From: a virus
Reading direction: 5' to 3' (one strand)
IMG/VR virus record: IMGVR_UViG_3300034356_000219
Location: 1 to 27,856 of that record
Length of the DNA stretch: 27,856 nt
This document shows, one piece after another, positions 2,340-25,022 of the stretch (its first letter is position 1; each line of letters starts with the position of its first letter). The notes under the pieces are model-generated. The model saw only the letters and a list, made by a program, of their open reading frames with translations, did not search any database and was not told the origin of the DNA. The translations under genes and the position numbers were made by a program.

Positions 2340-3083
2340 ATGAGTAAGATTGAAAACAAAAGCTACAATGATATGATTTTGGATATAGAGCCAGAATCAA
2401 GAACAGTAAAAGCGTGTTGGTCAAGGATTGGAAACGTAGATTTAGACAATGATATTATCGTTGCTGAAGCGTTTACCAAGACTATCAAAGAACGTGGACC
2501 AAAAGGCAAAAATATGATTTGGTCTTTAGTAGATCACAAAGCTGATATGGCACACACTTTAGGGAAGCCTAAAGAGTTATACATAGAAGGCGATATGCTT
2601 GTTGCGGTTACTGACTTAATAGAAACTGAATGTGGCGAAGATGCTATCAAGTTATATGAAGCTGGTTTAATCAATCAACACTCAATCGGTTTTAGTACGT
2701 TAAAGTCGGATGTAAACCAAAAGACTGGTGTGCGTACTATCACGGAATTAAAACTATACGAAGGTTCTGCGGTTCTTTGGGGTGCTAATCCAGAAACACC
2801 AATGTTGGGTTTCAAGGGAGAGTTTAAAGAAACAAAAGAAAATTTATCAATAAGATTAGAAAACTTAATCAAGGCATTTAGAGGTGGTACATTCACAGAT
2901 GACACCTTTGCTTTGATGGAGATTCAAATAAAACAAATACAAGCCGAGTTATTAACTTTGGAGATTACTGAAACAATCACTCAACCCGAGCCATCAGTTG
3001 AGCCGACACCAGTGGTAGAAGAAAAGAATAACGAGGAAGTATTAAAGGCAATTAAGCAATTTAACAATCTATTTAAAAAGTAA
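2340..3083 (+). CDS. Prohead protease (HK97 gp4-like, peptidase S78)
   Basis: This is the maturation protease that removes the scaffolding portion of the capsid protein during head assembly. Visible family features are the catalytic His in WSLVDHKAD (His66), the catalytic Ser in LINQHSIGFS (Ser115) and the strand containing LKLYEGSAVLWGANPETP, whose Glu141 is a candidate third residue. The first 160 residues form the protease domain; residues 165-247 are a charged, partly proline-rich tail (TQPEPSVEPTPVVEEK) ending in LFKK that probably serves as an inhibitor or scaffold part. The major capsid gene follows after 2 nt. Length of 247 residues is normal for this family. Confidence 0.9.
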   Translation: MSKIENKSYNDMILDIEPESRTVKACWSRIGNVDLDNDIIVAEAFTKTIKERGPKGKNMIWSLVDHKADMAHTLGKPKELYIEGDMLVAVTDLIETECGEDAIKLYEAGLINQHSIGFSTLKSDVNQKTGVRTITELKLYEGSAVLWGANPETPMLGFKGEFKETKENLSIRLENLIKAFRGGTFTDDTFALMEIQIKQIQAELLTLEITETITQPEPSVEPTPVVEEKNNEEVLKAIKQFNNLFKK

Positions 3084-3085
3084 AA

Positions 3086-4177
3086 ATGGAAAATTTAATC
3101 AATGAAATGGCTGAGAACCTTAAAGGTTTCCAAGCTAATGCAGAAGCCCAAATCAAAGAGGTGGCTGCACAAGTAACTGTTGTAAAAGACGAGTTACAAA
3201 AGCAAATCGACGGACAATTAGCTACACAAAAGAAAGCAGCTAAGAAAGAAGTTAAATTTATGGATGAAGTTATCATGGAGAAATTAGATGGTAATTTTGA
3301 AGCAATGGAGAAGTCTTTAAAGAATAGCGGAAAATTCCGTTTAGACTTATCTGATGTTAAGACAATGACTTTAAGTGGAAACTTAACTGGTGATTCTCAA
3401 GCAACTTATGCTCCAAACCCAGCTATCCAACCTTCTCAAAGTTTAAACTTTAGAGATTTGATCCCTACTGTTAGAAGCGAAACTGGATTGTATGTTTACT
3501 ATCGTGAGAACGCTGGTTTAACTAACAACATCGCTGCTCAAACTGAAGGTTCTGATAAAGGTGAGAACAACTACTCTTTAACTGAAGTTAAAGTTGTAAA
3601 CGACTACCTTGCTGGTTTCTCTACTTTCTCTAAGCAAATGTTGAAGTCTTTACCTTTCTTGACTCAAACTTTACCGAGAATGTTACAAAGAGATTTCTTT
3701 AAGGCTGAGAACGCTGCATTCTTCTCTACTGTATCTGCTGCTGCAACAGGTTCAACTACAACTGCTGAAACTAACGATTTGTTACAATTAGTAGATTATA
3801 TCGGTAACCAAAAGGCTGCAAACTTTGTACCTTCTTATGCTTTAGTATCTCAACAACAAATGGGTCGCTTATTGAAAGCAACTATTGCTGCTGGTTACTA
3901 TGCTGGTGCTGGTAGTGTTATCGTAAACCCTAATGGTGGTATCACAATCTGGGGTGTTCCAGTTGTATCTGCATCTTGGGTAACTGATGACAAAGTATTG
4001 ATCTTCGATAATAGCTACTTAGAGAGAGTTGAAGTTGAAGGTTTAGCTATCGAGTTCTCTTATGAGAATGGAGATAACTTCCAAAAGAACTTGGTAACTG
4101 CTCGTATTGAGTGTTACGAAGACATCAACTTAATGTTGACTACATCTGCAATCTTTGCTGATATGGGTAACGTATAG
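3086..4177 (+). CDS. Major capsid protein, HK97 fold
   Basis: Residues 1-95 form a charged, coiled-coil-like delta/scaffold domain (NLINEMAENLKGFQANAEAQ), and the mature capsid shell domain begins around residue 100 near LSGNLTGDSQATYAPNPAIQ. The shell contains the E-loop-like stretch YYRENAGLTNNIAAQTEG and the P-domain helices around FLTQTLPRMLQRDFFKAENA, as in HK97-like capsids. The prohead protease encoded just upstream would remove the N-terminal domain; the exact cleavage site cannot be read directly. Codon choice is visibly restricted compared with neighbours (many GCT, ACT, TCT, AAC and TTC codons), as expected for the most abundant phage protein. A strong terminator follows 24 nt after the stop. 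Confidence 0.93.
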   Translation: MENLINEMAENLKGFQANAEAQIKEVAAQVTVVKDELQKQIDGQLATQKKAAKKEVKFMDEVIMEKLDGNFEAMEKSLKNSGKFRLDLSDVKTMTLSGNLTGDSQATYAPNPAIQPSQSLNFRDLIPTVRSETGLYVYYRENAGLTNNIAAQTEGSDKGENNYSLTEVKVVNDYLAGFSTFSKQMLKSLPFLTQTLPRMLQRDFFKAENAAFFSTVSAAATGSTTTAETNDLLQLVDYIGNQKAANFVPSYALVSQQQMGRLLKATIAAGYYAGAGSVIVNPNGGITIWGVPVVSASWVTDDKVLIFDNSYLERVEVEGLAIEFSYENGDNFQKNLVTARIECYEDINLMLTTSAIFADMGNV

Positions 4178-5691: not shown

Positions 5692-6085
5692 TATTGAGAT
5701 AAAGAAGTGGTTTTATACTAACTTGACAAGTGCAAGTGGATTGGTTGTATATGATGGTTTTGCTCCTGAAGGTGCTGGTGATGAGTATATTGTTATGACA
5801 GGTAGAACATCAAGCCAAGATCAAGGCAAAGCAGGTTATACAAATAGTATTAGCATCACAGTTGATATTATTACAAAAAATGCTAACTTTGGTTATAAAC
5901 GTGCTGAAGCTATAAGCGATTTAGTCTTGAACGCAATAAATTCGGACACCAATATAACATTGGCAAACGGATTCACTGCATCAAGTTTAAGTGTTGAAAG
6001 TGTAAGAAACTTAGACGGCTTAAACCCTTTAGATAATGTTTTTAGAGTATTAATAACATATAATATAACCATAACTCAAAATTAA
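5678..6085 (+). CDS. Tail terminator / tail completion protein (gp17-, DUF3168-like)
   Basis: This 135-residue protein sits between the gp10-like gene and the tail tube gene, the normal place for the ring that stops tail tube growth and joins tail to head. It has an N-terminal helix (IEIKKWFYTNLTSASGL), a central strand region ending in VDIITKNANFGYKRAEAISD, and C-terminal strands (NVFRVLITYNITITQ). The helix starting KRAEAISDLVLNAI after the long strands is typical of the family. Sequence identity in this family is low, so the call depends partly on gene order. It overlaps the gp10-like gene by 14 nt. Confidence 0.75.
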   Translation: MLNPNIEIKKWFYTNLTSASGLVVYDGFAPEGAGDEYIVMTGRTSSQDQGKAGYTNSISITVDIITKNANFGYKRAEAISDLVLNAINSDTNITLANGFTASSLSVESVRNLDGLNPLDNVFRVLITYNITITQN

Positions 6086-6096
6086 AATAAAATAAA

Positions 6097-6552
6097 ATGG
6101 CAGAAACAAAAGTAAGCGCAAGAGATTATATCCTCTTAGCTGACATTAACAATGACGGAACATACAAGCCTGTTGCTTGTTTGACTACCAACTCTTTGAC
6201 ATCAACTTTAGGAACGATTGATGCAACTTCTAAATGTGGAGATCAGTACACTCCAAGTCCTTCATTCAATCAATCTTTTGAGTGTGAAGGTTTTGCGATT
6301 GATGAAACAGGAACTCCATCTAAAGATAGTTACCAACAATTATACGATGCTCACGCTGCAAAGACTTTATTTGCAATTAAGATGGGTAGAGCAACTCCAG
6401 TAGCAGGTGATGTTTATTATGGTGGAACTCCTACAAGTTTAGTATTTATTAGCAACTTTAATGTTAATGCTGCTGATAAAGATGATGTTAAATTTACTGC
6501 AACTTTCGTAGTAAGTGTACCACCTATTGCTCAAACTGAAGTACCAGTATAA
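6097..6552 (+). CDS. Major tail (tube) protein
   Basis: The protein starts AETKVSARDYILLADINNDG, has the alternating strand pattern of tail tube subunits, and contains the core FECEGFAIDETGTPSKDSYQ followed by AHAAKTLFAIKMGRATPVAG, which resembles TP901-1-type tube proteins. It precedes the tail-assembly chaperone genes and the tape measure gene, the standard position. Subunits of this family stack as hexameric rings around the tape measure protein to form the tail tube. An AT-rich leader (AAAATAAAATAAA) precedes the ATG and is typical of strongly translated Bacteroidetes genes. Confidence 0.88.
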   Translation: MAETKVSARDYILLADINNDGTYKPVACLTTNSLTSTLGTIDATSKCGDQYTPSPSFNQSFECEGFAIDETGTPSKDSYQQLYDAHAAKTLFAIKMGRATPVAGDVYYGGTPTSLVFISNFNVNAADKDDVKFTATFVVSVPPIAQTEVPV

Positions 6553-24274: not shown

Positions 24275-24425
24275 CATATTCGCAACGTGCAAAGAGGAAC
24301 AAATAGCAGGATATTCTTGTTATTCTTTTGTCATTGATGGATGTACCCACTATGTATTTGGCGAAACACAAGAACAAGCATTTGATTATTTAGCAGACTT
24401 AATAAATAAATATGGCGAAAGTTAG
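24258..24425 (+). CDS. Possible small protein with a TTG start, 55 aa
   Basis: This frame lacks an ATG but reads as plausible protein: NIFATCKEEQIAGYSCYSFV followed by IDGCTHYVFGETQEQAFDYL and ADLINKYGES. The only normal alternative start is TTG at 24258, which overlaps the ninG end. Base use and length fit a real gene, but a non-ATG start and the absence of homology evidence keep confidence low. It overlaps the next small gene (start 24412) by 14 nt. Confidence 0.4.
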   Translation: MIDTSNIFATCKEEQIAGYSCYSFVIDGCTHYVFGETQEQAFDYLADLINKYGES

Positions 24426-24531
24426 TAACGGCAACAAGGTAAGTTTTGGGCGAAGGAAAACAGGAAAGTACAAAAAAACATCTGGTCCAAAGGATAAGCC
24501 AGTTAAGCCATATCAAAGACAGGGTAGATAA
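24412..24531 (+). CDS. Small, very basic protein, 39 aa
   Basis: The protein is MAKVSNGNKVSFGRRKTGKY followed by KKTSGPKDKPVKPYQRQGR, with about one third Lys/Arg and no acidic cluster. Small basic proteins with FGRRKTGKxKK and an end like YxxQGR are something I recall from related phages, with no known function; nucleic acid binding is likely. It starts in the AATATG context and ends 5 nt before the tRNA-Leu-like gene. Confidence 0.65.
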   Translation: MAKVSNGNKVSFGRRKTGKYKKTSGPKDKPVKPYQRQGR

Positions 24532-24536
24532 AATAT

Positions 24537-24652
24537 AGTCAGTTGGCGGAATGGTTGTAGACGCAGTGGTAAGCGAGGTGTACCACGTTAGAATAAAGGC
24601 GGGAGCGCTCCAACGTCTCTAACATTTACAGGTTCGAATCCTGTACTGACTA
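24537..24652 (+). tRNA. Class II tRNA-Leu-like gene with odd anticodon loop and giant variable arm
   Basis: AGTCAGT (24537-24543) pairs with ACTGACT (24645-24651) as a 7-bp acceptor stem. The D arm, GCGGAATGGTTGTAGACGC (24546-24564), is of the Leu type, and the T arm ACAGG TTCGAAT CCTGT (24628-24644) is standard. The anticodon stem GTGGTA/TACCAC (24566-24571/24581-24586) has a 9-nt loop (11 nt if the stem is taken as 5 bp) with GAG at its exact centre, which would read Leu CUC/CUU, but there is C in place of U33. The variable arm (24587-24623, closed by GTTAGA/TCTAAC) is 37 nt, far longer than normal. No CCA is encoded. It may be a modified or decaying tRNA. Confidence 0.6.
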
Positions 24653-24692
24653 CTCGTGGGCATCAAAACATATGTGAGCAAGATGCATCTGG

Positions 24693-24766
24693 ACTTGCTT
24701 TTAAAACGACTGATGAAGCCTGAAATGGTGGAAACTGAAAAGTCTCGTGGAGTTACCCCTGCAAGT
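24693..24766 (+). ncRNA. Hammerhead-like ribozyme core (type I arrangement)
   Basis: The conserved bases are all present in order: CTGATGA (24710-24716), GAA (24731-24733), A15.1 (24734), and AGTC with U16.1 (24743) and C17 (24744). Stem III is ACT/AGT (24734-24736/24741-24743) capped by a GAAA tetraloop. Stem I is ACGA/TCGT (24706-24709/24745-24748) and continues, after an internal loop, with ACTTGC/GCAAGT (24693-24698/24761-24766). Stem II is GCC/GGT (24718-24720/24727-24729). The predicted cut is after C24744. The weak point is the A-G pair next to the core in stem II (24717/24730), where natural hammerheads usually have G-C. Activity is untested. Confidence 0.55.
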
Positions 24767-24795
24767 GAATAACTGGTAACCACTCGCATATTGAC

Positions 24796-24819
24796 TGATA
24801 GGAAAGACTATCACTTTTT
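24796..24819 (+). terminator. Terminator of the tRNA/ribozyme transcript
   Basis: TGATAG (24796-24801) pairs with CTATCA (24808-24813) around a GAAAGA loop and is followed by C and five T residues. It would end the non-coding stretch 24532-24820 just before the next gene. Confidence 0.65.
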
Positions 24820-24830
24820 AAAACTAAACT

Positions 24831-25022
24831 ATGAAAGATACATACGGAAAGAAGCTATATACCTGTAAATGTGGTACAATTACCGAAGGCTATGTATGGT
24901 TCGGTAAGATAAAAGAAACCCAATTTGAATGTACTAAGTGTGGCAAATGGGTTGGATATGACAATTTAGAAAAGAAAGTAGATAGTATTATTTCAATACG
25001 AACACCAACAAAAAACCGATAA
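24831..25022 (+). CDS. Zinc-ribbon protein, 63 aa (Com-like candidate)
   Basis: The pairs CKCG (residues 12-15) and CTKC (residues 34-37) flank a strand-rich middle (TITEGYVWFGKIKETQFE), forming a zinc ribbon. It is the first gene of a short block with ParB-like and Mom-like genes. In phage Mu the small zinc-finger protein Com is needed for translation of mom, and this protein has similar size, a similar metal site and a similar place upstream of a Mom-like gene. That parallel is inference; I see no direct sequence similarity beyond the cysteine pairs. Its stop overlaps the next start (TAATG). Confidence 0.7.
   Translation: MKDTYGKKLYTCKCGTITEGYVWFGKIKETQFECTKCGKWVGYDNLEKKVDSIISIRTPTKNR

Follow-up and report, generated by a model that had tools for sequence, protein, structure and literature searches.

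A phage RNA very probably of hammerhead type, set in a pseudoknotted fold directly behind a tRNA-like element

The stretch of viral DNA analysed here (hereafter the window, 27,856 nucleotides) carries a short unit made up of a tRNA-like element, an RNA with a hammerhead core and a 3' hairpin; genes in its neighbourhood specify a NinG endonuclease, proteins of ParB-like and Mom-like type and a large terminase. A first-pass annotation had suspected a self-cutting RNA beside a tRNA-like gene at this place, and from the sequence comparisons described below this is very probably a real phage RNA of hammerhead type, there being no data on cleavage itself. Other loci are referred to by L numbers, and the features of the window are as follows:

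24532-24830, + strand: the cassette of tRNA-like element, hammerhead RNA and 3' hairpin, 299 bp, delimited by blastn against close relatives
24537-24652, + strand: tRNA-like element whose anticodon loop is non-standard and whose variable arm is long (Rfam RF00005, cloverleaf fold)
24654-24659, + strand: X strand TCGTGG, which repeats the post-cleavage strand TCGTGG of 24745-24750 (blind column scan, pair counts)
24660-24686, + strand: P1 hairpin, GCATC 24660-24664 with GATGC 24682-24686 (helix search, pair counts)
24670-24678, + strand: PK1 5' strand ATATGTGAG, pairing with 24783-24791 in a helix that covaries in relatives
24693-24698, + strand: P2 (outer stem I) 5' strand ACTTGC, pairing with GCAAGT 24761-24766
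24706-24709, + strand: inner stem I 5' strand (Z) ACGA, pairing with TCGT 24745-24748
24710-24716, + strand: hammerhead core CUGAUGA (C3-A9; DNA CTGATGA), from the sequence and the core pattern
24717-24730, + strand: stem II, GCC 24718-24720 with GGU 24727-24729, loop UGAAAU, mispair A24717·G24730 (10.1·11.1)
24731-24733, + strand: core GAA (G12 A13 A14), read from the sequence
24734-24743, + strand: stem III ACU-GAAA-AGU (ACT 24734-24736, AGT 24741-24743), read from the sequence and covarying in relatives
24744-24745, + strand: predicted cleavage site C17/N1.1, C24744/T24745, inferred from the hammerhead family
24745-24750, + strand: stem I 3' strand, which is the post-cleavage strand (Y), TCGTGG, from the sequence and relatives
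24752-24757, + strand: PK2 5' strand GTTACC, pairing with 24775-24780
24761-24766, + strand: P2 3' strand GCAAGT, partner of ACTTGC 24693-24698
24775-24780, + strand: PK2 3' strand GGTAAC, partner of 24752-24757
24783-24791, + strand: PK1 3' strand CTCGCATAT, partner of 24670-24678
24797-24819, + strand: 3' hairpin GATAG-GAAAGA-CTATC followed by a T-run, read from the sequence and unscored as a terminator

The tRNA-like gene proposed upstream of the core holds up, as the element reaches 35.5 bits with RF00005 (cut-off 29) and folds into a cloverleaf, though it is not called by ARAGORN. The arms of its 6-bp anticodon stem are separated by 9 nt, so that a 7-nt loop with U33 is lacking, and it is for the absent ARAGORN call and the 9-nt loop that we label it only "tRNA-like". 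Among 20 members of the window's subtype a script finds a T-arm and acceptor ending equally far before X in three, the window, Mycobacterium phage Gaia and L213, all with cloverleaf folds directly upstream that do not have a 7-nt anticodon loop; Arthrobacter phage Constance is a fourth bearer, recognised by eye and without a cloverleaf fold, and L180 has an unconvincing tRNA-like match 102 nt away. The element of Gaia is annotated as tRNA-Ser(cga) and is not called by ARAGORN. Other subtypes have looser upstream elements, in L127 without a cloverleaf and in L167 with a cloverleaf and a 7-nt loop that lacks U33. The RNA of this family can be found directly 3' of a tRNA look-alike.

At the other end of the unit, the terminator that had been proposed as its last part is weak, consisting of a 5-bp AU-rich stem and five T, and a consensus scan of 24400-24900 finds no intrinsic terminator. 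A GGAAAGA hairpin lies at the equivalent place in several other relatives. Separately, a GAC-stem-GGAAAGA hairpin is found immediately 5' of plain hammerheads in L124 (504), L148 (5805) and L165 (94), on the + strand, and may as such be an independent phage RNA motif.

The limits of the cassette come from relatives that have none. In L005 and L084 both flanks align (86-90% identity by blastn) and are contiguous from 24531-24533 to 24828-24831, and L083 is likewise contiguous from 24531 to 24831 by blastn. Judging from these alignments the 299-bp unit may either have been inserted in the window or been cleanly lost from these three; insertion is favoured because none of 80 loci surrounding relatives of the window's neighbouring ParB-like gene is matched by R1, a covariance model built from 15 relatives with the window left out. 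One loose core match among the neighbour-gene loci, L076, is not a hammerhead. In several loci the RNA lies before what we take, from the sequence alone, to be terminase, portal or lysis genes and in others in presumed replication regions, and since the gene neighbourhoods differ in this way no role in antitermination or packaging is claimed.

Hammerheads share the nucleotides C3 U4 G5 A6 N7 G8 A9, G12 A13 A14, the pair A15.1-U16.1 and H17. Positions 24710-24744 of the window, the full span of the core, meet this consensus at every listed nucleotide, with the three stems I, II and III around them. The same core nucleotides are given in PMC3088659. The CTGATGA, GAA and AGT-C parts, the stems and the outer helix ACTTGC/GCAAGT are all where the first-pass annotation had put them. 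A strict core pattern has a single match in the window, where 100 shuffles give 0.02 on average. Stem II has merely 3 bp (one of them G-U) besides the mispair, and stem III has 3 bp; the Watson-Crick pair at 10.1-11.1 that is typical of hammerheads, without defining them, is replaced by A24717·G24730. The energy z-score of the window is weak (-0.16), and the unconstrained minimum-energy fold is without the scaffold described below, by a method that cannot show pseudoknots.

A search with the Rfam hammerhead models, which had been proposed as a check, a missing match being counted as a refutation, gives no match to the window even at E 10. Nor is there a hammerhead above the gathering threshold in two sets of 15 and 8 loci scanned (L155 being in both and L139 being a non-member), and a scan of 7 loci at E 1 gave one hammerhead match, L257, at 28.7 bits where 34 are needed. 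As L257 has a canonical core and still falls below the type I cut-off, the absence of an Rfam match is weak evidence and says little about the window; the results suggest instead that some phage hammerheads, as a group, escape the Rfam hammerhead models. A SNORD74 match in the window at E 3.9 is put down to chance.

Relatives were collected by core patterns, none of which contained any scaffold letters. An exact 19-base piece of the core leads to three viral contigs, L002, which is identical to the window across 3,101 bp, and L001/L003 of another phage, with different stems I and III that still pair. A broader core pattern that left stem II free gave 55 stretches and a pattern that fixed A10.1...A11.1 with stem III free gave 94, with 70 distinct core matches over all the loci then collected; viral contigs supply relatives, and so do phages of Klebsiella, Mycobacterium, Arthrobacter and Enterobacter. 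Other searches were less productive: CATATGTGAG together with CTGATGA gave 39 stretches in viral contigs (38, plus L111), of which only L002 and L001/L003 look real, a scan of a genome collection gave 2 matches, both within apparent coding sequence, and the pattern CTGATGAANNNTGAAANNNNGAAAC gave 2 that are apparently coding.

While the first-pass description of the core was correct, the RNA is larger and pseudoknotted, and only its middle part had been described. The whole fold takes up ~140 nt, 24652-24792, and adds to the core the hairpin P1, the outer stem I (P2) and a pair of pseudoknots: PK1, where the loop strand of the upstream P1 pairs with the 3' flank, and PK2, where the internal loop of stem I pairs with a stretch behind P2. 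In many loci all four of these helices lie at similar distances from the core. A helix finder detects the complete scaffold in 44 of the 70 distinct core matches and none in the other 26, many of which resemble coding sequence. The scaffold of the window scores 62.8 against a maximum of 54.8 in shuffles of its own flanks (0/100 as good), and 0/100 is the result for 43 of the 49 sequences tested, the six exceptions being L218 and L199 (1 shuffle in 100 each), the permuted L155 (6), L222 and L243 (10 each) and L211 (36).

From the 49 scaffolded sequences an alignment of 41 was made. The eight left out were L178, L211, L222 and L243, which have no stem I, a weak scaffold or both (L178 was excluded because its stem I is without any pair, though it beats its shuffles at 0/100), the permuted L155, and L001, L203 and L229, which are identical to or near copies of others. 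L131 (PK2 of just 4 bp), L143 (permuted) and L161 (at a contig end) have an incomplete scaffold in the finder and are in no pair count. With the 41 aligned blind to structure, PK2 is paired in 92.7% of cells and there are two-sided changes in all five of its pairs. The window's subtype is represented by 16 sequences, counting the window; in these P1, P2 and PK2 are 99-100% paired and stem I 97%, with PK1 paired in just 45.7% of aligned cells because the alignment is shifted there. Once the window is taken out, each of the six helices holds in the remaining 15 sequences, where 97.2% of 464 cells are paired and the covariation is 0.672 versus 0.186 (0/500 shuffles); the compensatory stem changes that were to be looked for in related phages are thus present, in 108 cells. 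These pair counts are helped by selection, as the aligned relatives, Gaia and Constance excepted, had been kept for scaffold helices detected by the finder, an effect for which the shuffling of each sequence's own flanks (43/49 at 0/100) is the control. Comparison of the relatives shows the core, stems I and III, P1, P2, PK1 and PK2 to belong to a single conserved fold.

The covariance model R1 finds the window at 85.2 bits (E 4.2e-23), a score that derives in part from core letters by which the relatives had been chosen. In a search of 20 sources 13 match R1 and 7 do not, these 7 being the other hammerhead loci L122, L124, L126, L139 and L148 and the empty-site relatives L005 and L084. In a further search R1 has no match in the chance core matches L205, L210, L220 and L231. 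It does match six later loci in which position 17 is not C or is shifted, five of them at 34 to 130 bits and L308 at 28. The claim that a hammerhead-type core lies 3' of a phage tRNA-like element is thereby supported by comparative evidence. Plain hammerheads also form a separate group on phage contigs (L122, L123, L129, L134 and others), lying just before apparent ribosome-binding sites; their stem II loop and 3' flank seem to be complementary in sequence. Another hammerhead-like string, at 3721-3755 (-) of L139, has the same UGAAAU stem II loop and lies directly behind a tRNA-Gln on a contig with 12 tRNAs and a tmRNA; as it has no scaffold and no R1 match it was left out of the family.

Similarity searches with two relatives place the RNA in six Klebsiella phages (seven records, Magnus being present twice), the Arthrobacter phages Constance and Karkharias, Mycobacterium phage Gaia and Enterobacter phage SDFMU_EhYP. 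R1 matches 10/10 records tested, of which six are independent, Magnus and EhYP among them; L213, L224, Constance and Gaia were part of R1 by construction and hence are not independent. No ribozyme is annotated in the five isolated-phage regions that were inspected, and the hammerhead core within a larger knotted fold apparently constitutes an unrecognised family of phage RNAs. Three members, L257 (EhYP), L155 and L143, match R1 twice and are permuted, with the 5' part of P1/PK1/P2 lying behind a core whose own order is unchanged; the permuted pairings were checked by eye.

Several other RNA-like features were seen in the course of this work. The Magnus record L254 has an STnc100 sRNA match above cut-off (52.9 bits) at 3817-4031 (+) and weak tmRNA-like matches at 1905-2106, and L151 has an int-alpA RNA match (RF02996) at 2579-2645 (+), ~330 nt behind its scaffolded hammerhead; a closing helix of similar look, AGAGCACTG...CAGTGCTCT, surrounds the permuted hammerhead of EhYP (L257). 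An apparent 18-bp closing helix encloses the scaffolded hammerhead of L226 at 6040-6230 (+). A further common module, ACTAACACGCATGAG ... TGTTGGTA, can be seen by eye near the hammerhead RNA in L127 (upstream of 3770), L164 and L212.

Signs of catalysis were sought at three places in the core. Two scans jointly permitted all four bases at position 17, and the members with a full scaffold among 85 non-redundant core matches have C in 37 and U in 6 (Magnus included), with no A and no G, near copies being counted separately; Constance, which falls outside the scan pattern, has A17. Two apparent exceptions, L182 as G17 and L301 as A17 (both with a high scaffold score and not the full set), are register artefacts that both read as C17. 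In the scaffolded members the base before the predicted cut is thus C or U, once A and never G, as catalysis would require. In phage Gaia the pair C3-G8 is replaced by U3-A8 (TTGATAA), a covariation reported to be active in hammerheads in section 8 of PMC3088659. Both constraints, that H17 is not G and that C3-G8 can be replaced, are met in relatives.

The A-G pair in stem II was regarded in the first-pass annotation as a concern, and the mispair is certainly there. For the pair 10.1-11.1, 17 loci were picked by eye from the search that leaves stem II free, and in the 14 that are scaffolded in the ordinary order it is A·A in 11, A·G in 1 (the window) and G-C in 2 (L138, L121). The conserved CTGATGA, A10.1 and A11.1 of later relatives are no evidence, since most were found by patterns that fix them. 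As far as these sequences can tell, the mispair of the window fits the family and need not be a flaw. A mispair at 10.1-11.1 is nevertheless expected to lower activity; in section 8 of PMC3088659 U·U is the best tolerated mispair, a natural U·U variant is accepted in that paper, and the section does not name A·G or A·A as active.

When the alignments were scanned blind, the 5' strand of stem I proved to have another partner besides Y, the strand X just before P1. In the 41 sequences 86.2% of cells in the X columns (3-5/70-72) are paired, the first pair being G-C in 24, U-A in 9, C-G in 4 and something else in 4. In the window's subtype X and stem I are paired in 93.8% of cells, with 0/500 shuffles as good for cells paired and for covariation, and 499/500 and 425/500 for the two measures based on numbers of pairs and of types. 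If the register is kept strict, X and the post-cleavage strand have the same first base in 34/41, and the X pairing is weak when any register is permitted, 29/2000 permutations being as good. It is suggested, by inference, that X may form a competing helix on stem I, where it could displace the post-cleavage strand; if so, cutting or the release of product would probably be switchable, which we offer as a proposal. A tandem or rolling-circle reading was set aside, as there is no hammerhead site before X.

The reading that best explains the whole, to which we give a probability of roughly three in four, is that of a phage-borne cassette in which a type I hammerhead core sits in a doubly pseudoknotted scaffold and serves as a self-cutting module for transcript processing. 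The scaffold is inferred to keep stems I and II in the active arrangement, such that the RNA would cut itself between C24744 and T24745 despite its weak, A·G-mispaired stem II, giving a 5' product with the tRNA-like domain, P1 and the core that ends in a 2',3'-cyclic phosphate, and a 3' product that begins with a 5'-OH. It had been predicted that a cut after C24744 would release the tRNA side, which the cut alone probably would not do, by inference from the 9 bp of PK1, the 6 bp of P2 and stem I, which can keep the two halves joined; the products would remain paired through PK1 and P2 until rearranged. The tRNA-like domain would most likely be a handle for RNase P or tRNA 3'-end enzymes and not a decoding tRNA, with the unit as a whole carried as a movable cassette.

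That the hammerhead-like string arose by chance in AT-rich DNA would agree with the missing Rfam match and the weak energy z-score, and can be practically discounted in the face of the independent model match (E 4.2e-23) and the covariation in relatives. It is harder to dispose of a structural RNA that does not cut, in which the hammerhead fold has been kept as a junction of a protein- or RNA-binding phage RNA and catalysis has been turned off by A·A or A·G. The pair 10.1-11.1 is indeed mispaired in most scaffolded members found without fixing it (12/14), and any products would be kept together by PK1, P2 and stem I. We nonetheless think a non-cutting RNA unlikely, because base 17 is C, U or A and never G, U3-A8 covaries in Gaia, and a canonical G-C is found at 10.1-11.1 in L138, L121, Constance and EhYP within the same or a permuted scaffold.

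The echo of Y in X, and its covariation with stem I, could also be understood if the RNA were a ligase or strand-exchange element in which X replaces Y on stem I and a circular or chimeric RNA is formed; the products are kept together, which would favour ligation, and an X-like strand is kept in the permuted members, as judged by eye. Such an element is very improbable, since there is no consistent U16.1-H17 before X, and so no hammerhead site there, and no known source of a 5'-OH before X. The self-cutting cassette can itself be extended to a more general proposal, which we hold only tentatively and at somewhat less than even odds: that these are widespread unannotated phage RNAs in which a hammerhead broken by A·A or A·G is rescued by two pseudoknots and gated by X, a copy of the post-cleavage strand, with an optional non-decoding tRNA mimic, forming a self-cutting switch that exists in ordinary and domain-permuted orders.

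The role of bacterial and phage hammerheads was called unclear in 2011 (PMC3088659, section 6), and among the matches listed in the open PMC literature there is nothing that settles it. Likewise no paper on the scaffolded-hammerhead architecture is among the matches listed from that literature, subscription papers being outside its scope. What is now available is a large set with a fixed architecture, a putative switch that can be tested and, in some members, a tRNA mimic. The set includes the isolated phages Klebsiella phage Magnus, Mycobacterium phage Gaia, Arthrobacter phage Constance and Enterobacter phage SDFMU_EhYP, and with these the question of hammerhead function becomes experimentally approachable in ordinary phage-host laboratory pairs.

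Of the known systems, the type I hammerhead (RF00163; PMC3088659) shares the core CUGANGA...GAA...A-U H17, an open stem I and a short stem III, and bacterial hammerheads are stated in section 6 of the same source to be often near prophage genes. The RNA described here differs in the 10.1-11.1 mispair (A·G in the window, A·A in 11/14), in the P1, PK1 and PK2 scaffold outside stem I with its optional tRNA-like domain, and in that the window RNA is not reported by the Rfam model. Theta ribozymes are, like it, small self-cutting ribozymes 3' of phage tRNAs (PMC10879173); they are HDV-like and their cut is often adjacent to the tRNA, whereas here the ribozyme is of hammerhead type and the cut is predicted 92 nt past the tRNA-like end, so that the predicted cut is not adjacent to a tRNA 3' end as in theta ribozymes. 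A search of that paper for the term "hammerhead" finds none. A hammerhead core combined with a pseudoknot has been described in PMC11300833, where a pseudoknot and an extra stem-loop substitute for stem II; in the window stem II is a closed hairpin, and the pseudoknots link the internal loop of stem I and the loop of the upstream hairpin to the 3' flank. Finally, the permuted hammerheads SGC and CSG (PMC10085705) are, like the permuted members found here, natural rearrangements of hammerhead RNA; in that source it is the core segments that are rearranged, whereas in L257, L155 and L143 only P1 and the 5' strands of PK1 and P2 move to the 3' side.
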